From contig JAPYUT010000022.1 of assembly GCA_029940475.1 (NCBI GenBank), positions 1 through 50,982 of the forward strand: 50,982 bases of DNA, written 5' to 3'. The notes below the pieces were generated by a model. That model ran no database searches. It saw nothing but the letters and a program-made list of their open reading frames with translations, and had not been told where the DNA came from. Below, piece after piece: positions 9,312 to 24,807 of this stretch; the stretch's first letter is position 1, and every line of letters begins with the position of its first letter. A program made the position numbers and the translations under genes. The stretch is from Verrucomicrobiales bacterium. GTDB taxonomy: Bacteria > Verrucomicrobiota > Verrucomicrobiia > Verrucomicrobiales > DEV007.

Positions 9312-12300
9312 ATGTCCACGTTTAAAGTTGTTAATCTTCTGCTCGCCTCTGTGCTTGCATCGGCTCCTCTTTGCCGCGCCGACCTGGTCGCCCACTACGC
9401 CCTCGACGAGACAGATGATAGCGCCTCCCCCGCCGTTGACTCGCTGGGCAACAATCCCGGAAACATCATTGGCGGGGAAGCCAATCTCTCCAAGGGGGTG
9501 GCTTCGGCAATGCCTCATCTCAATACCGCATATCATTTCGAGATACGTGGCGGATTAAACATCGGCACCAGCCAGGCAGCCCGACCAAGTGACCAGTGGA
9601 CCATGACCTGGTGGATGCGGCCGGACACACTTGACCCGTTTGACCGCATCTACGAGAGCCTGGCCGGCACCGGCAACGATGGTAACGGCATCCGTATCGA
9701 CCTTGGCGGGTCGCCGGGAGACAGCCTGCGTGTCCTGTTGCGCGACGGCAACGGCTCAACCAGCACCTCACTCACCCATCCTCTCAACCTCACGGCTGAT
9801 AACTGGTATTTTTGCACCGTGCGATATGACTCAAGCCTCGGCAACGGGACGGCCCTGAAAATAACCGTCCTCCCCGCCGGCATCGATAATATTCCTGCCA
9901 ACACCGTCACGGCCGCCACCCGCTCGGCAAACTCACTTGGCACAGGCCCTATCACCATCCACGGCAGCGGGGCTTTCATTGCCGCTGATGATGCCGGTGC
10001 CTCCGGGGCCAATGACTTCGGCGGTTCACTTGATGACTTTTCAATCTTCCAGACCGGCGACACCTTCGGTGTCCTCAGCGATGAGCAAGTTGCCAGGATA
10101 CACAACATTGGCGCGCTTGCCTTTGACCCACCAGTGCCTGTGCCCGAGGTGCAGAGTTTCACCGTAAGCCCGGCAAATGCGGCAAGCGGTGACGTTGTCA
10201 CCCTGAGCTGGAATGTCTCCAACGCCAGTTCCGTGGAAATCGTACCCGATGTCGGACCTGTGGCCATCAGCGGTGAAACACAGGTTACCGTCACCGCCAC
10301 AAAAATTTACACCCTCAGTGCAACCAATGCCGAGGGCACAGTCACGGCCACCGCGCAGGTCACCGTGAATGATCAGTCCCTCCCTGCTCGCATCTCCGAG
10401 TTTGTGGCAAGCAATTCCGGCAGCCTGCTCGACGGCGACGGCAATGCCAGCGACTGGATTGAAATCCATAATCCCAACCTTTCAAACCTGGATATCTCCG
10501 GTTACCACCTGACAGACGATCCGCTTGAACCCGACAAGTGGCCATTCCCCCCGGACACGGTGCTGGCAGGTGGAGAATACCTTGTCGTCTTTGCCTCCGA
10601 CCGGCAGGTAGCGGACTATATTGATCCCGAAGGCAACCTGCACACCAGTTTTTCCCTGAACAGTGACGGTGAATACCTCGCCCTCGTTGCCACCGACGGC
10701 ATGACCGTCATCCAGGATTTTTTTCCCCAGTTTCCGCCAATCCCCGAGGACGTGTCCTACGGGACCGAGGGTTTCTTTACCGAGCCGACACCACGCGCTG
10801 TAAACAGTCCTGCCGGCGTGACGGGATTTGTGGAGGACACCTCGTTTAATATCGACCGCGGGTTCTTCTCCGCGCCCTTTGACCTTGTCATCAGCACCGC
10901 AACCGATGAAGCCGAAATCTACTACACCACCGACGGCAGTGCCCCCTCTCCATCCAGTGGCACGCTCTACACAGCCCCGCTAAAGGTCACTTCCACCACC
11001 GTTGTGCGCGCCGCAGCTTACAAGGATGACTTCGCGCCGACAAACATCGATACCCACACCTATCTCTTCCTCTCCGATGTCCTGGCCCAGCCAAACAACC
11101 CGCCGGGTCTGCCCCGCACCTGGGCCGGCAGGCCCGCCGACTACGAGATGGATCCCGACATCGTCACTGACCCCGACTACGCAACCGAACTGATCCCCGC
11201 ACTGCAGGCCTTCCCCACCCTCTCCGTTGCCATTGATCCAGGTGATTTCTACGGGGCACAGGGACTCTACCAGAACCCGCAAAGCCAGGGAGATGCCTGG
11301 GAACGCGCTGTCTCGGCGGAACTGATGGTGCACGATGACAGTGAGAAAGGCTTCCAGATTGAAGCGGGACTGCGCATCCAGGGCGGCAGCAGCCGCAACC
11401 CGGACACTCCCAAGCACAGCATGAGCCTGCGTTTCCGCAAACAATACGGACCCGGAAAGCTGCGCTATGACGTGTTCAGGGACGCGCCCGGCAGTGACAC
11501 CGCGACCGATGAGTTCGACTTCCTGCAACTGCGCTCCGGATACAACTTCGGCTGGGTGCATCGCCATTACTTCCAGTCTCGCCATGCACAATATAACCGT
11601 GACCAGTTCGCCAACGACCTCTACCTGGCAATGGGAAACCCGGGTTCACACGGACGCTGGGCACATCTCTACATCAACGGCCTCTACTGGGGAATTTATC
11701 ACCTGCACGAGCGTCCTGACGCGGACTATATGACCTCGTATTTCGGGAATTCCGAGGACGGATACGATGCAATCAACTCCGGTAGAGCCGCCAACGGCAG
11801 CATGACGGCCTACAACAGGATGACCTCGCTGGCCGCCGGCAACATCTCCGATCCCGACAATTACAAGGAACTCGGCAAACACCTGGATATCAATGCCTTC
11901 ATTGATTACATGCTGATGAATTTCTATACCGGCAACAGGGATTGGGACGGTCACAACTGGCGGGCTGCCGGACAGGGTCCAGGCGGTGAGCCATTCCGTT
12001 TCTTTCCCTGGGATAGCGAGTTCGCCATCTCACCGAATGGTGCGGGAGCAATCCAGAATCCCGCCCCGTTATCAGCCGCACTAACCGCCAATGTCACCTC
12101 AAAGAACGGCAACAACCGCCCCAGTGGCATCCATCAGGATCTCACGAACAATGAGGAATACCGCCTGCAGTTCGCCGATCACATCCGGCACCACATGTTT
12201 AACGGTGGGCCGCTCAGCCCCGAGGGTGCGACCGCCATCTGGCGGCACCGCTCGGATAAAATGAATTTACCGATCGTCGCCGAGTCAGCACGCTGGGGAG

Positions 12301-14027
12301 ACTTCCGCCGTGATGTCCAGGCCGGTTCACAGTGGAACTCCTCGCAATACGACCTCTATACCAGAAACGATCACTATTTCCCCGACCAGCAGTGGATCAT
12401 CACGACTTACCTGCAGCAGCGACGCGACATCGTCGTCAATCAACTGCGCAACCGCGACCTTTATCCGCAAACCGCCGCTCCCGATTACAATCAACACGGC
12501 GGGCTGGTGCCGACCGGGTTCCTCCTTTCGATGACCAATTCCAATGCCGGTGGCGTTATCTATTTCACTCTTGATGGGACCGATCCGCGCACAACTGCCG
12601 GTCCTGCCGAGGACATTGTGCTGCTGCAAGAAAATACACCGGCCACCGCCCTCGTGCAGAACACTGACGGCGGACTCGCAACAAGCTGGACGAACAACAA
12701 CTTTGACGACTCCAGCTGGCAGAGTGGCGCAACCGGCATCGGCTTTGAGAGTACTGCGGCTCATTATGATCCGCTGACCAACCTTTATGTCCCGCAAATG
12801 AACGGGGTGAACTCCTCCTGCCTGGTCAGGGTGGCCTTTTCCGTGGCCGATCAGGCCACCCTCGGGAGCATCGCAGGACTTACGCTGAACATGAAATACG
12901 ATGACGGCTACAGTGCCTTCATCAACGGTAAGTTTGTCGGCGGCAGGAACAATCCGGCAACCCTCGCCTGGAACTCACGCGCAACGACAAGTCACCCCGA
13001 TTCACAGGCCCTGCTCTATGACCAGCTTGATATCTCCGCCGCAATTCCCAACCTGCAAATCGGTAGCAACATGCTGGCAATACAGGGATTGAACGTCTCG
13101 CCGGGCAGCAGCGATTTCCTCATTGTGCCGCAGATCACCTATACAACGGGTGTCGCCAACGGCGTTTCACAATCAGCGCAAGTCTACAACAACCCGGTAG
13201 AACTAACCTCCAGCGGGCCGGTGAACGCCCGCATCCTGGAAAACGGCACCTGGTCGGCACTCAACAGTGCCGGGTTTATCGTCGGCTCGCCGGCAAATAC
13301 AAGCAACCTGGTCGTTTCTGAAATCCACTACAACCCGGCCGGCGCGGAAGAAGCCGATGAATTCATTGAGCTTATGAATATTTCCGGCGAACCGGTGCAG
13401 CTGGCAGGCGTAAGTTTTTCCGCCGGCTTGACCTACACCTTCCCGATCACCAGTGAGCTTGCCGGTGGTGCCCGCATCTTCCTAACACCCGCCGACTACA
13501 CCGGCAACCTCGACAATGGCGGCGAGCAACTCACCCTGCTTGATACCGCAGGGGCAATCATTGAAAGCTTCACCTACAATGACCGCTCTCCCTGGCCCGA
13601 GGCTCCGGACGGTAACGGCCCGAGCCTTGTCAGGATCGCCCCCGGTTTACAACTCGACCCGAGCCTGCCGTCAAGCTGGCGCTCAAGCAGCAGTTCCGGA
13701 GGTAACCCCGGTGCCTCGGATGCCACATCCTTCACCGGCGGGGACATCCTCGCATACGCGCTGGGGCCGTCTGCTTCATTACATACCGGCATTGAGGACG
13801 GTCATCTCAGTCTCGATTACTCACGCAAGCTCTCTGCAGACGACATCATCTACACCATCGAGATCTCCACAGACCTGACCACATGGAAAAGCGGTGACAC
13901 TTTCACCAGGACAATTGATGAACGCCTGCCGCAACCGGACGGCACCACTGTAATGATTACCCGATCACTTGTTCCCGTCTCCGACTCACCCAGACAATAC
14001 CTGCGCCTGAGGGTAACAAAACGCTGA
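9312..14027 (+). CDS. Large secreted LamG / lamin-tail / CotH-kinase-like protein
   Basis: The 1571-residue product has a Sec signal (hydrophobic LLLASVLASA, cleavage near CRA-DLVAHY). By eye the domains are LamG-like lectin fold (25-260), an Ig-like module (about 275-355), lamin-tail domain (about 358-470, SEFVASNSGSLLDGDGNASD), chitobiase C-terminal-like module (about 510-580, EIYYTTDGSAPS), CotH-type kinase-like domain (about 640-1000, with GIYHLHERPDADY and the FFPWDSEF metal-site-like motif), a second chitobiase-type module (GVIYFTLDGTDPR), a beta-sandwich insertion, a second lamin tail (SEIHYNPAGAEEADEF) and a C-terminal module IEISTDLTTW ... YLRLRV. CotH of Bacillus is a protein kinase of spore coat proteins; the role of these extracellular homologues is unknown. 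This architecture recurs in Verrucomicrobiota. Confidence 0.85.
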   Translation: MSTFKVVNLLLASVLASAPLCRADLVAHYALDETDDSASPAVDSLGNNPGNIIGGEANLSKGVASAMPHLNTAYHFEIRGGLNIGTSQAARPSDQWTMTWWMRPDTLDPFDRIYESLAGTGNDGNGIRIDLGGSPGDSLRVLLRDGNGSTSTSLTHPLNLTADNWYFCTVRYDSSLGNGTALKITVLPAGIDNIPANTVTAATRSANSLGTGPITIHGSGAFIAADDAGASGANDFGGSLDDFSIFQTGDTFGVLSDEQVARIHNIGALAFDPPVPVPEVQSFTVSPANAASGDVVTLSWNVSNASSVEIVPDVGPVAISGETQVTVTATKIYTLSATNAEGTVTATAQVTVNDQSLPARISEFVASNSGSLLDGDGNASDWIEIHNPNLSNLDISGYHLTDDPLEPDKWPFPPDTVLAGGEYLVVFASDRQVADYIDPEGNLHTSFSLNSDGEYLALVATDGMTVIQDFFPQFPPIPEDVSYGTEGFFTEPTPRAVNSPAGVTGFVEDTSFNIDRGFFSAPFDLVISTATDEAEIYYTTDGSAPSPSSGTLYTAPLKVTSTTVVRAAAYKDDFAPTNIDTHTYLFLSDVLAQPNNPPGLPRTWAGRPADYEMDPDIVTDPDYATELIPALQAFPTLSVAIDPGDFYGAQGLYQNPQSQGDAWERAVSAELMVHDDSEKGFQIEAGLRIQGGSSRNPDTPKHSMSLRFRKQYGPGKLRYDVFRDAPGSDTATDEFDFLQLRSGYNFGWVHRHYFQSRHAQYNRDQFANDLYLAMGNPGSHGRWAHLYINGLYWGIYHLHERPDADYMTSYFGNSEDGYDAINSGRAANGSMTAYNRMTSLAAGNISDPDNYKELGKHLDINAFIDYMLMNFYTGNRDWDGHNWRAAGQGPGGEPFRFFPWDSEFAISPNGAGAIQNPAPLSAALTANVTSKNGNNRPSGIHQDLTNNEEYRLQFADHIRHHMFNGGPLSPEGATAIWRHRSDKMNLPIVAESARWGDFRRDVQAGSQWNSSQYDLYTRNDHYFPDQQWIITTYLQQRRDIVVNQLRNRDLYPQTAAPDYNQHGGLVPTGFLLSMTNSNAGGVIYFTLDGTDPRTTAGPAEDIVLLQENTPATALVQNTDGGLATSWTNNNFDDSSWQSGATGIGFESTAAHYDPLTNLYVPQMNGVNSSCLVRVAFSVADQATLGSIAGLTLNMKYDDGYSAFINGKFVGGRNNPATLAWNSRATTSHPDSQALLYDQLDISAAIPNLQIGSNMLAIQGLNVSPGSSDFLIVPQITYTTGVANGVSQSAQVYNNPVELTSSGPVNARILENGTWSALNSAGFIVGSPANTSNLVVSEIHYNPAGAEEADEFIELMNISGEPVQLAGVSFSAGLTYTFPITSELAGGARIFLTPADYTGNLDNGGEQLTLLDTAGAIIESFTYNDRSPWPEAPDGNGPSLVRIAPGLQLDPSLPSSWRSSSSSGGNPGASDATSFTGGDILAYALGPSASLHTGIEDGHLSLDYSRKLSADDIIYTIEISTDLTTWKSGDTFTRTIDERLPQPDGTTVMITRSLVPVSDSPRQYLRLRVTKR

Positions 14028-21032: not shown

Positions 21033-22748
21033 TTATTTCCGCCACGATTCCACGGTATAGGATTTGCCCTCCTTATAGGAAGCAAGGCGTGCCTGAATTT
21101 CGGCAACTTCAGGCTGGTCGGCAGACAGATTAATAGCTGCCTGCGCACTCTTCTGGGCCGAGAAAAAGTCACCCGCCGCGGCCTGTGCAACACCTAACAG
21201 ATCAAGGTATGCCGGGTTCATATTCTTGCTCATACCGGTAAGCCGTGCGGCCAAAGCGAGCGCCTCAGCAGGGCGGCGAACTGCCTCATCGGGATGAGCC
21301 GCCAAAATCCAGGCAAGATGCTCGGCAGCACTGATTGTTTTCGGTGACCGACGAAGTGTGTCCTTGTAGGCAGCAATCGCGCCTTGAGGATTACCGGCAT
21401 CCCGCATGGCATCCGCCTTCATGAGCAATGCCTTTCCCGGGTCTGCAAGGCGGTCCAACTCGCTGCGCAACACGGCAATCACTTCCTTCACGTCACTGCC
21501 GACCGGGTTCATTGCGGCAAAGCCTTCAAGATAACGCAATGCAGCCCGCGGTTGGGCGGCATCAACCAGTTGTGAGCTCACGTTGAGCGGTTGCGGCTTT
21601 GGCGGCGATCCAATAAACCGGCCGGGAAATGGAAGTGCGGCTCTTCTCCATGCCTCCGGAGCCGCGTCCAACAACTCGCAGTCCTTCACAAGTTGGCCGA
21701 CCGTGACCCTTCCCTTATAGATCACCGCGACTCTTCCTTCGCGATCAATTAAAAAACTGCTTGGCACCGGCAATGCAATCCAGCGGTCGAGGATGGCACG
21801 CTGGAAGAGGTCGAGACCACGCACGGTGGCAGCGGTCACGGCAGCGCTTTCAAAAGGGTAGCCCCTGCCCGCCTCGGGATCACCATCAGCATTAAGGATA
21901 AGCACCCGCAACCCTGATGCCCTCAAACTGCCTTGCCTCGCCGACCACTCTGTCAATTCCTCCACGCAGGGCAGGCATGTCTTTGACCACAGGTTAATGA
22001 GAAGTGGTCCTTCAAGTTCACCAATGCCCTCTAATACAGGCAACGCAAGGCGGGCAGGCAACACCACTCGTGCTGCTTGCTCGTCGGGTAATGGAACCTG
22101 GTCGGCAGCAACAAGGGGTTTCTGCCCATTAGGATAATTCCAACGCTTCGGCACAGGGTCTCCGAAGCCAACAATGTAGAACTCCCCGGGTTCAATACCT
22201 GCGAACTGGCTGAGCGCACCTCCCGGCCAACGCACAACAACCCGGGAAATCTTCGCCTTCGCACCCAGGCCAAAGTGAAGCCATGAACTACCCTGCGACA
22301 GGAAGCTATCTCCACCATGTACCGTGCGCAGCAATGGCACCTTTTCTCCCTCGAGCCATACCTCTGCGCGGGCTCCAAGGGCATCTCGGTTGACCTTTTC
22401 CCCATCCCCCTCAAGCCTGAACGCCACCCAGTTCCCGCCAGTATTGCGGGAACGGTTTTCCAGGAACCTCACACGTGGCGCCGTGCGGCAGGTGAGCCAC
22501 AGGTCGAGGTCTCCATCAAAATCCCAGTCGGTAGAGACGACTGCACGTGCGTCGTCAGGAAAATCAAAGCCGCTCACCGCGGAAATGTCTGCAAATCCGC
22601 CACCGGCGCAGTTAAGGAATGCACAATTACGTTCCCCACCGCTAAAGGATCTGTCCTCATGAAGTAATCGGTTAAGTGCCTTCCATCCCTGCTGGTAACG
22701 CATCAACTCAGCCGGTGTAGCGCTGGCACTGAGGGGTGATTGCGACAC
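21033..22748 (-). CDS. ASPIC/UnbV, TlpA-like redoxin and TPR part of a CRTAC1-type protein (second half of a split gene)
   Basis: This 571-residue frame begins in mid-domain: GERNCAFLNCAGGGFADIS and DWDFDGDLDLWL are the last FG-GAP-type unit, then an ASPIC/UnbV domain (WLHFGLGAKAKISRVVVRWPGG near 140), a TlpA/thioredoxin-like domain with CLPC (about residues 257-260) and a cis-Pro region LPVPSSF, and a C-terminal TPR-like helical region. No signal peptide is present. The apparent start is GTG at 22748 without a proper ribosome site. The upstream gene is in the same frame and is separated only by one TGA (22770-22772) and codons for SAYWRQV, which read smoothly into this protein. I therefore think it is the 3' part of a single gene. 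Confidence 0.75.
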   Translation of the reverse strand: MSQSPLSASATPAELMRYQQGWKALNRLLHEDRSFSGGERNCAFLNCAGGGFADISAVSGFDFPDDARAVVSTDWDFDGDLDLWLTCRTAPRVRFLENRSRNTGGNWVAFRLEGDGEKVNRDALGARAEVWLEGEKVPLLRTVHGGDSFLSQGSSWLHFGLGAKAKISRVVVRWPGGALSQFAGIEPGEFYIVGFGDPVPKRWNYPNGQKPLVAADQVPLPDEQAARVVLPARLALPVLEGIGELEGPLLINLWSKTCLPCVEELTEWSARQGSLRASGLRVLILNADGDPEAGRGYPFESAAVTAATVRGLDLFQRAILDRWIALPVPSSFLIDREGRVAVIYKGRVTVGQLVKDCELLDAAPEAWRRAALPFPGRFIGSPPKPQPLNVSSQLVDAAQPRAALRYLEGFAAMNPVGSDVKEVIAVLRSELDRLADPGKALLMKADAMRDAGNPQGAIAAYKDTLRRSPKTISAAEHLAWILAAHPDEAVRRPAEALALAARLTGMSKNMNPAYLDLLGVAQAAAGDFFSAQKSAQAAINLSADQPEVAEIQARLASYKEGKSYTVESWRK

Positions 22749-22769
22749 GACCTGCCGCCAATAAGCACT

Positions 22770-22772
22770 TCA
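22770..22772 (-). other. In-frame TGA splitting the CRTAC1-type gene
   Basis: Both halves lie in the same minus-strand frame. Reading through the TGA gives DTGDL-stop-SAYWRQVVSQSP with no frame change, and the following codons encode a Trp-Arg-Gln motif that continues the fold. The codon would be a nonsense change, a sequencing error or a recoded codon. TGA is a normal stop elsewhere in the window (for example lysS and the CotH gene). Confidence 0.8.
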
Positions 22773-24626
22773 CAGGTCACCGGTATCAGGCGCGCTGATA
22801 AAACCGTTGGCAACCACCAGGTCCTGCCAACCATCATTGTTAAGGTCAGCAAAACGTGAGCCCCAGGCCCAACGACCCATCGTCACTCCGGCAGAGATGC
22901 TAATGTCACGAAACTTCCCGCCGCCTGGCATTCCCTCAAACAGAGAGTTTCCACGGGCGTGGCGCCGGTAACCGGCAATGAGCTCGTCCCCGGCGCCTGG
23001 CTTGAACTGACGCTGGAAGGTGATGCGGTTGCCCGCGGTCGAGAACATATTGCTGATATAGAGGTCAAGTGCCCCGTCACGATTGAAGTCTGCCCAGCTG
23101 GCAGACATGCCTGCAGACATGTCCTCGACCCCGAGCTGCGCGGCGACATCCCTGAACTTGCCACCGTCATTCCTGTAGAGGTTATTGCGTCCATAATCGT
23201 TGGCCACGTAAAGGTCGGGATCACCATCGTTATCGTAATCCTCCCAGCTGGCGGCAAAACTGAAGCGGTTGTTGTTCTGATCAAGGCCAACATCAGCAGT
23301 CACTTCAACAAACTCCCAGTTGCCTTCGTTGCGCAGCAGCATGTTACGCCCTCCGTTCTGTGCATCGTGGTAGGGCAATGGCTCGCCGAGCATACCACTC
23401 TCTCCCCGGTCAGTTGCCGGGTTATAACCGCACAGGAAAAGGTCGAGATCACCATCAAGATCAAAATCGGCAGCAGAAATCGAGAAAGTCTGGGCATGCG
23501 TGCCAAGCCCCAGGGCAAGTTCAAACTTTGCTCCCCCAAGGTTGTCCATGAACAGGATCTTGAAGTCCTGGGAAACTGCAAGGTCGCGATCCCCGTCGTT
23601 GTCAAAATCCAGAATCAGTGCACTGGCGCAATAGTCCAGCCACCCTGTAGCGCTCTCGGCAGTAATGTCGCGCAGAGTTCCGTCCGGATTGCGTACAAAG
23701 AGTCGGTTGGGTAGCCCTCCCTGCTGACAAAGGTAAAGGTCTTCAAGGTTATCCCCATTCACATCACCAATTGCCAAGCCGTGGTTGGCAACCACATCCA
23801 GCCCGAAATCACGTGCCACCCGGCCTCTCCAGTGGTCTGTCGAGCGCAATAATTGCCGCTCATAGGCCTCAGTGTTGCCAAGGACTGATGCAGTGGCATC
23901 GGCAAACAATGTGTCGCCCTTGTCACTTAAGCGCCGCACTTCCACGTAACTTTTCACCTTGATGCCGAGCAGTTTCGGGTCTTCGGAATTCACTGTCCAT
24001 GAGGTATCCCACTCGGAATTTATCTGCAGACGATCACTGCCAGCCCTCCCCGCAAGATGAACCAGCACACTGGCGTGCACCTTACCGGTACCAAATTCAA
24101 TACGATAAAGCTTAAGCTCCGCATGCACCGGTTGCCGACGATCGAAGCCCGCTAGTAAATGCCTGATTTGCGCAGCCATCCCATCCTCCAAGGAATCCTC
24201 CGGACGACCCCGGTAAACCGCAAATTCTCGATCCCTGTGAACCTCTTCAAGCAGCACGGCACGCAGTGAACCTGCCTTGAAGTCCAAGGAAACTAGCTCC
24301 TTGATGTCAAAATTGACCAGCCCCGCGGAGTTGTTCATTGCCGAGGAGAGTTTCTTTAGTTTCCCACCCGCAGCCGCACTGAATGCCTCGGATTCCCAGC
24401 CGTCCTTCTTGGGATCGATCCGCGACCAGGCATCGGCAAGTGGGCCGATCACGGGGGCATTTTCCAGGCCGGGAGCGGAAATCATCTCCATTTCAGGAGC
24501 ATTAGGAGAAGATTCACCATTAATGGCGCCATCCTCCCGGGAAGAGCATCCCGGCAATCCCCAAGCAAACCCGCAAAGCACAAAAATACTCTGTAACGCC
24601 GACGGGCAACACCTTGCAGTTTCCAT
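22770..24626 (-). CDS. FG-GAP/VCBS lipoprotein, first half of a split CRTAC1-type gene
   Basis: From the ATG at 24626 the product (618 residues) has a lipoprotein signal METARCCPSALQ ... LPGC-SSRED with Cys in a good lipobox. After a beta-rich region (residues 30-280) come six calcium-binding FG-GAP/VCBS loops: DVNGDNLEDL, DFDNDGDRDL, DFDLDGDLDL, DYDNDGDPDL, DFNRDGALDL and DLNNDGWQDL. The seventh loop (DWDFDGDLDL) and the ASPIC/UnbV domain that normally complete this propeller lie beyond the TGA at 22770-22772, in the next frame segment. An in-frame ATG at 24671 would add 15 residues before the signal. If only this half is made, the propeller is incomplete. It would sit on the periplasmic or outer membrane face. 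Confidence 0.8.
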   Translation of the reverse strand: METARCCPSALQSIFVLCGFAWGLPGCSSREDGAINGESSPNAPEMEMISAPGLENAPVIGPLADAWSRIDPKKDGWESEAFSAAAGGKLKKLSSAMNNSAGLVNFDIKELVSLDFKAGSLRAVLLEEVHRDREFAVYRGRPEDSLEDGMAAQIRHLLAGFDRRQPVHAELKLYRIEFGTGKVHASVLVHLAGRAGSDRLQINSEWDTSWTVNSEDPKLLGIKVKSYVEVRRLSDKGDTLFADATASVLGNTEAYERQLLRSTDHWRGRVARDFGLDVVANHGLAIGDVNGDNLEDLYLCQQGGLPNRLFVRNPDGTLRDITAESATGWLDYCASALILDFDNDGDRDLAVSQDFKILFMDNLGGAKFELALGLGTHAQTFSISAADFDLDGDLDLFLCGYNPATDRGESGMLGEPLPYHDAQNGGRNMLLRNEGNWEFVEVTADVGLDQNNNRFSFAASWEDYDNDGDPDLYVANDYGRNNLYRNDGGKFRDVAAQLGVEDMSAGMSASWADFNRDGALDLYISNMFSTAGNRITFQRQFKPGAGDELIAGYRRHARGNSLFEGMPGGGKFRDISISAGVTMGRWAWGSRFADLNNDGWQDLVVANGFISAPDTGDL

Positions 24627-24807
24627 TCGCTTTATCCTGATGCCGCTATCAGGAAAAAACAAGTAAGTCACACCTTTCTTACACTGCTTAGCTTAAAGGA
24701 TTCAGTGGAGATTGCTCTTATCATGCGCCCTGAGCAAGGCAGTATAATTATAACCAACACTGAAAAAACAAGCCTTATGCCATTTCCCTAATGATAATAT
24801 TACCGGG

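Follow-up and report, generated by a model that had tools for sequence, protein, structure and literature searches.

The window analysed here is a stretch of 50,982 nucleotides (nt; contig JAPYUT010000022.1, assembly GCA_029940475.1) from a bacterium of the order Verrucomicrobiales, whose genome is a draft of 3.97 Mb in 130 contigs and 92% complete. Its minus strand carries a gene for a putative lipoprotein of the CRTAC1 type, with a reading frame that runs from an ATG at 24626 (or a GTG at 24671) to a TAA at 21035-21033. The ATG is the more likely start codon, because it is followed by a signal-like sequence and a lipobox, GLPGC, both identified by eye. Counted from the ATG, the frame comprises 1,197 codons plus the TAA, and its sole in-frame stop is a TGA at 22772-22770 (codon 619). 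A first-pass annotation of the window had described two halves in one frame, separated by this single TGA and the codons for S-A-Y-W-R-Q-V, after which a GTG opens the second half; the translation bears out both statements. We consider it highly probable that the TGA is decoded as selenocysteine (Sec) under the control of a selenocysteine insertion sequence (SECIS), and that the gene encodes one predicted lipoprotein of 1,197 residues with the CRTAC1 fold, not a truncated product. The features of the gene are collected in Table 1.

Table 1. Features of the gene with the in-frame TGA, in coordinates of the window.
Feature	Position	Strand	Basis
Whole gene: 1,197-codon frame (plus TAA) with one in-frame TGA; predicted Sec-containing CRTAC1-fold lipoprotein	21033..24626	-	
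Predicted lipidation site Cys27, in the GLPGC lipobox that ends the signal sequence	24546..24548	-	sequence
CRTAC1-like beta-propeller and UnbV region, residues 230-823, one modelled fold bracketing the TGA	22158..23939	-	structure model, FG-GAP Pfam matches
Predicted selenocysteine codon (TGA in frame, residue 619), at the start of modelled helix 619-627	22770..22772	-	
Predicted bacterial SECIS hairpin: 5' arm GCGGCA 22758-22753, loop GGTCG 22752-22748, 3' arm TGTCGC 22747-22742	22742..22758	-	
Ser662, residue tracking Sec across the family	22641..22643	-	
ASPIC/UnbV domain PF07593	22185..22382	-	Pfam
ResA/TlpA-like thioredoxin domain, CLPC motif, Cys884 and Cys887 (codons 21977-21966)	21687..22004	-	
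C-terminal TPR-like helical repeat, helices 1013-1185	21072..21590	-	model and sub-cut-off Pfam TPR_2

The chain read through the TGA carries FG-GAP repeats followed by UnbV. In a Pfam scan, FG-GAP_3 exceeds the cut-off five times, of which only the best match was positioned (upstream of the TGA), and UnbV/ASPIC exceeds its cut-off downstream of the TGA. An Asp-rich loop of the same kind as the FG-GAP loops (DWDFDGD) is seen after the TGA in the translation, and in the modelled structure the CRTAC1 fold spans both halves of the chain.

The TGA is not confined to this gene. Used as a query with the stop read through, the protein finds matches (E <= 0.001) in 77 of 95 related genomes. Nearly all of the high-scoring matches listed contain exactly one internal TGA, which lies at the same codon wherever homologous sites were read; because of this recurrence a chance origin is excluded. 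A DNA pattern for the motif D-L-TGA-x-x-[FY]-W-R yields 152 matches, spread over 34 of the 95 genomes; reversed, it yields 3 (summed by hand). In total 122 distinct sites were read, from which seven chance matches without the family motif (L047, L067, L076, L150, L152, L153, L154) and one identical window were dropped, leaving 114 distinct sites in 29 genomes. The source genome itself has six pattern matches, all six verified; genome G035 has 14, and each of the 12 that were read is a true site. A scan of named genomes, whose pattern fixes parts of the 5' arm and loop of the hairpin described below and leaves the 3' arm free, gives at least 115 sites, of which at least 113 are true (L170 and L208 were dropped). 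The true sites fall in Verrucomicrobiota (at least 56), Planctomycetota (at least 39) and Acidobacteriota (at least 12), with at least 4 unplaced and at least one each in genomes labelled Myxococcota and Pseudomonadota. Both sets together comprise at least 210 distinct windows of 51 bases, 16 of them common to both. The Leu codon that precedes the TGA is TTG at 103 of the 114 sites, a preference that is a further sign of constraint at the RNA level.

Two side observations concern the reach of the family. A distant paralogue in the source genome (G000:C121:23849-25453) is matched with an internal TAA instead of a TGA, which may be a match running past the end of its frame. A metagenome bin titled Akkermansia muciniphila (L239, CAMAUV010000001.1) has a family member, whereas the DNA pattern finds no match in the small same-order genomes of one genus (g19); the title of the bin may be a wrong label.

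This distribution bears on two more conventional explanations. A fresh nonsense mutation, or else an error of reading or assembly confined to this genome, was among the options of the first-pass annotation and would agree with a lone clean TGA in a long, otherwise open frame of a draft in 130 contigs. The same TGA nevertheless occurs at the at least 210 sites named above, which come from three or more phyla and from many assemblies made independently, such that we assign this explanation practically no probability; fresh mutation, read error and old pseudogene are rejected alike because many genomes share the codon. Alternatively, translation could genuinely terminate at the TGA and begin anew at the GTG or another start nearby, so that the second half becomes a chain of its own in a two-chain protein. 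A GTG does occupy this codon in the window, as it does at 91 of the 114 sites, and the first half by itself is what gene callers annotate in databases: 40 of the 120 homologues listed in a protein search end there. The start codon is not strictly kept, however, being GTC, GCG, ACG, GGG or another codon at the other 23 sites, and the codons between TGA and GTG encode a conserved motif that is also present in homologues without the stop. The same frame continues for at least 215 codons past the TGA at 111 of the 113 sites with a complete 3' end (the other two end within 30 codons), and a real stop would cut inside one modelled propeller fold. We therefore regard two separate chains as very improbable. 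The suggestion that the halves are normally separate genes looks like an effect of annotation, the 40 entries in question, which are protein records only, ending at ..DL directly before the TGA.

Downstream of the TGA lies a predicted hairpin whose loop begins 17 nt past the stop. The 114 sites can be aligned from -6 to +45 with no gaps; the small loop, which six pairs close, reads GGUCG at 91 of them. The published rules for bacterial SECIS elements (bSECIS) ask for a loop of 3-9 nt with a G in its first two positions, a stem of 4-16 bp, a distance of 16-37 nt from the UGA and an energy of at most -7.5 kcal/mol (PMC13188914). The hairpin of the window agrees with all of these (5-nt loop GGUCG, 6 bp, 17 nt, -9.2 kcal/mol for the 38 nt from the UGA); across the family the energy is -7.5 kcal/mol or lower at 108 of 114 sites, and the stem is within the minimum-energy fold at 98. 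Pair counting over the 114 sites gives 90.4% paired cells versus 82.4% in 500 shuffles, 53 cells changed on both sides versus 5.4 +- 2.9, and a covariation score of 0.268 versus 0.130; once the arms are slid, pairing falls to 23-65%. Because the hairpin sits in coding sequence, every codon after the TGA was also recoded synonymously, 500 times, with the codon use of the same loci. All six pairs are present at 89 of the 114 real sites, compared to a mean of 2.7 and a maximum of 8 in the recoded sets; of the remaining sites, 11 reach six pairs with a loop of 3 or 4 nt.

The source genome encodes what is needed for selenocysteine insertion, namely a tRNA-Sec (62.7 bits, cut-off 47; anticodon UCA), SelA, SelB and SelD, all above curated cut-offs. 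Among 14 control genomes, the same searches are passed by tRNA-Sec in 5, SelA in 1, SelB in 2 and SelD in 2. The SelD of the source genome (L159, G000:C79:2856-3782; TIGR00476, 361 bits) contains one internal TGA and is therefore itself a predicted selenoprotein. Across the 95 genomes, SelA is found in 26 of the 29 with verified sites and in 18 of the 66 without (p = 1.5e-8, counted by hand and not corrected for kinship, with sub-cut-off fragments at G001 and G010 counted as present and G060, which has a single unchecked pattern match, counted as negative). The three genomes that have verified sites and lack SelA are only 53-59% complete. A division into two proteins leaves this link to SelA unexplained.

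The UGA might also be read in some other way, through a near-cognate or suppressor tRNA or because the code is reassigned in part, and yield Trp, Cys or Arg. The variable residue found in stop-free homologues (see below) fits a position at which several amino acids would be tolerated. Against such a reading, UGA is a common ordinary stop in this DNA: it ends 10 of 29 chosen open reading frames (ORFs) of the window and 22 of 64 complete family frames. The covarying hairpin at SECIS distance and the complete Sec machinery, with its TGA-bearing SelD, likewise argue against it, and we give it very little credence. General reassignment of UGA is rejected because of the ordinary stops just counted; since 22 of the 64 frames also terminate at TGA, UGA would carry both meanings inside one gene. 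By comparison, selenocysteine is suggested by three observations together, because the TGA is conserved, the hairpin covaries and fits the bSECIS rules, and tRNA-Sec, SelA, SelB and SelD are present in the same genome. Residue 619 is thus very likely selenocysteine, as predicted from sequence, which gives a specific form to the idea, already among the first-pass options, that the codon is read through or recoded.

A number of results weigh against this explanation or parts of it, and concern either the hairpin or the residue at the site. As to the hairpin, only 4 pairs show two-sided change versus 2.6 in shuffles (73 of 500 shuffles are as high), and further pair types number 9 versus 8.1 (167 of 500). 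Folding energies are not clearly below those of shuffled sequences (z-scores of -0.68 to 0.12 in seven folds). The stem forms in the 38-nt stretch of the window and in three of five longer stretches from relatives; the 57-nt stretch of the window folds differently, without it. RNAalifold picked another pairing, GAYTTG with CAGGTC, which is devoid of covariation. This alternative pairing (22749-22778, minus strand, its first arm before the TGA and its second within the hairpin) might compete with the SECIS hairpin or merely mirror conservation. Covariation and the synonymous recoding control, not folding energy, decided for the hairpin. DNA of stop-free homologues does not provide a further control: patterns with Asp, Cys, Gly or Tyr in place of the TGA give 2 matches in 23 genomes and 3 in 99, which, judged by the bases they match, look like chance hits.

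The second group of contrary results comes from the homologues. The protein search was limited to the 7,999 candidates with the most shared words and listed the top 120 of its 6,777 matches; 78 of the 120 are free of the stop and 760-1,500 residues long. Which amino acid they hold at the TGA had been raised by the first-pass annotation as a check, and the answer is mixed: Asp in 32, Ser in 15, Cys in 7, Ala in 5, His in 4, others in the remainder, and a gap in one. Cys homologues thus exist, as a minority. Because Asp or Ser can occupy the site, a redox residue is not essential to the fold, and these forms argue for non-redox versions of it. Moreover, 9 of the 113 Sec frames with a complete 3' end have neither a CxxC motif (two Cys separated by two residues) nor a Cys two residues past the Sec (UxC, with U for Sec). 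In a tree of the propeller half (FastTree, 142 rows, 418 columns), the link between CxxC and Sec is not significant after phylogenetic correction (median p = 0.125), a comparison that has few informative pairs and is underpowered.

Among the Sec forms, 58 of 64 have the CxxC and 63 of 64 have Ser662; among the Asp forms none of 32 has the CxxC, and 26 have Asn at position 662; among the Cys forms 3 of 7 have the CxxC. In the 113 Sec frames, CxxC follows at a distance of 200-320 residues in 98, UxC without CxxC occurs in 6, and both together in none. The propeller-half tree requires a minimum of 18 switches between Sec and not-Sec. Ser662 tracks Sec in independent tree pairs (median p = 0.008), and CxxC follows Sec in an average of 4.6 independent pairs and opposes it in 0.3.

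A second subfamily has the motif [SN]G.[YF][ST].P..DL-U-S.[FY]W[SR][TA]VV and, at most of its sites, a hairpin with a 4-nt loop. It comprises L057, L074, L132, L133, L137, L201, L223, L229, L239, L241, L243, L245, L255, L269 and, in the source genome, L080 (C10). Several of its short members have no thioredoxin (Trx) domain and a Cys two residues past the Sec. The short paralogues L057 and L074 have neither Trx domain nor CxxC nor UxC and do not fit the UxC idea; L269, one of the six UxC frames, stops after 30 codons.

With regard to mechanism, the hairpin would be bound by SelB, which would bring Sec-tRNA to the UGA. In the exported lipoprotein, the Sec would sit where a propeller helix starts and act as a redox-active selenolate. 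It would be reduced by the chain's own ResA-like CxxC domain; in some short paralogues that lack this domain, the Cys of UxC would do so instead. A redox role for the predicted Sec619 is rather likely, and that the CxxC domain within the chain reduces it is a tentative prediction that we hold at somewhat less than even. The Sec could also be inserted and serve structurally, in metal binding or as an electron relay within a binding or scaffold protein, without being a catalytic residue served by the CxxC domain. This reading is consistent with Asp or Ser at the site in 47 of the 78 long stop-free homologues, and with the best solved fold matches, which are CRTAC1 and, by Foldseek, fungal lectins. 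The CxxC that accompanies Sec in most frames is absent from every Asp form, enzymes with a propeller fold occur lower in the list of fold matches, and, according to a 2026 review, most uncharacterised selenoproteins are likely to be redox-functional (PMC13188914); a non-catalytic Sec thus seems unlikely, while carrying some weight.

Vertebrate CRTAC1 proper has an EGF-like domain after UnbV and is not known to be a selenoprotein. The EGF model is absent from the Pfam scan of the read-through chain, which is hence not classed as CRTAC1 itself. Compared to CRTAC1/FG-GAP-UnbV proteins (murine CRTAC1, structure 9etn), the protein described here is a predicted lipoprotein with an extra N-terminal region, a ResA-like CxxC domain, a helical repeat and the predicted Sec. 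With ResA/TlpA oxidoreductases it shares a CxxC at the start of a helix and the Trx-like fold (E = 6e-6; target template modelling score 0.60), whereas here the domain is one part of a far longer chain; NF002854, the model of ResA in NCBIfam, scores 25.7 bits against a cut-off of 170, such that the domain is only ResA-like. With bacterial bSECIS selenoproteins (119 families in Table 1 of PMC13188914) it shares the in-frame UGA, the downstream hairpin and the small apical loop starting with G at 17 nt. Sec machinery in the genome and the existence of Cys homologues are shared as well, although Cys is only a minority among stop-free homologues here. Most selenoproteins that have been characterised show a Trx-like fold, according to the review (PMC13188914), in contrast to the CRTAC1-type propeller that holds the Sec in this protein. 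Selenoproteins of the TlpA/redoxin families in the same table also combine a TlpA-like or redoxin domain with Sec in one protein, with UGC or UxxC as the Sec motif given there; here the Trx-like domain keeps its CxxC, and the Sec is found about 265 residues upstream, in the propeller.

The kind of decoding is known, while the family appears to be new, as does the placement of Sec in a CRTAC1-type propeller. The available part of the 2026 catalogue of 119 prokaryotic selenoprotein families contains no FG-GAP, VCBS, ASPIC/UnbV or CRTAC1 entry (PMC13188914). NCBIfam release 20 gives two model matches only, both below cut-off and neither a selenoprotein. No earlier report of Sec in such a family was found in the open-access literature without preprints, with candidate table S9 of PMC4807772 outside the search. 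At least four of the 120 listed database matches are named VCBS repeat-containing protein. It is close to an even chance, by our estimate slightly below it, that the family constitutes a new class of exported selenoenzymes, in which an FG-GAP propeller lipoprotein holds the Sec and its own thioredoxin domain recharges it, as a large family across Verrucomicrobiota, Planctomycetota and Acidobacteriota with up to a dozen copies per genome that gene callers have missed.

A family rich in paralogues, for which metagenome bins are the main source here, seems to use Sec in a fold that is unlisted in the available part of the catalogue (PMC13188914). If true, it would be one of the larger bacterial selenoprotein families, overlooked since its members are cut at the UGA in gene calling; how much selenium these bacteria use would be underestimated, and many database entries would be wrongly shortened. 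The repeated exchange of Sec with other residues on the tree makes the family a good case for asking when selenium repays its cost, and the association of Sec, Ser662 and CxxC offers a first testable handle on the role of FG-GAP/UnbV proteins.

A Pfam scan of eight neighbouring ORFs (DUF7133 with F5/8 type C, class II tRNA synthetase, YqeY, IspD and others) gives no functional hint. Elsewhere in the window, positions 9312-14027 encode a protein of 1,571 residues with CotH kinase, lamin tail, laminin-G-like and chitobiase C-terminal domains.

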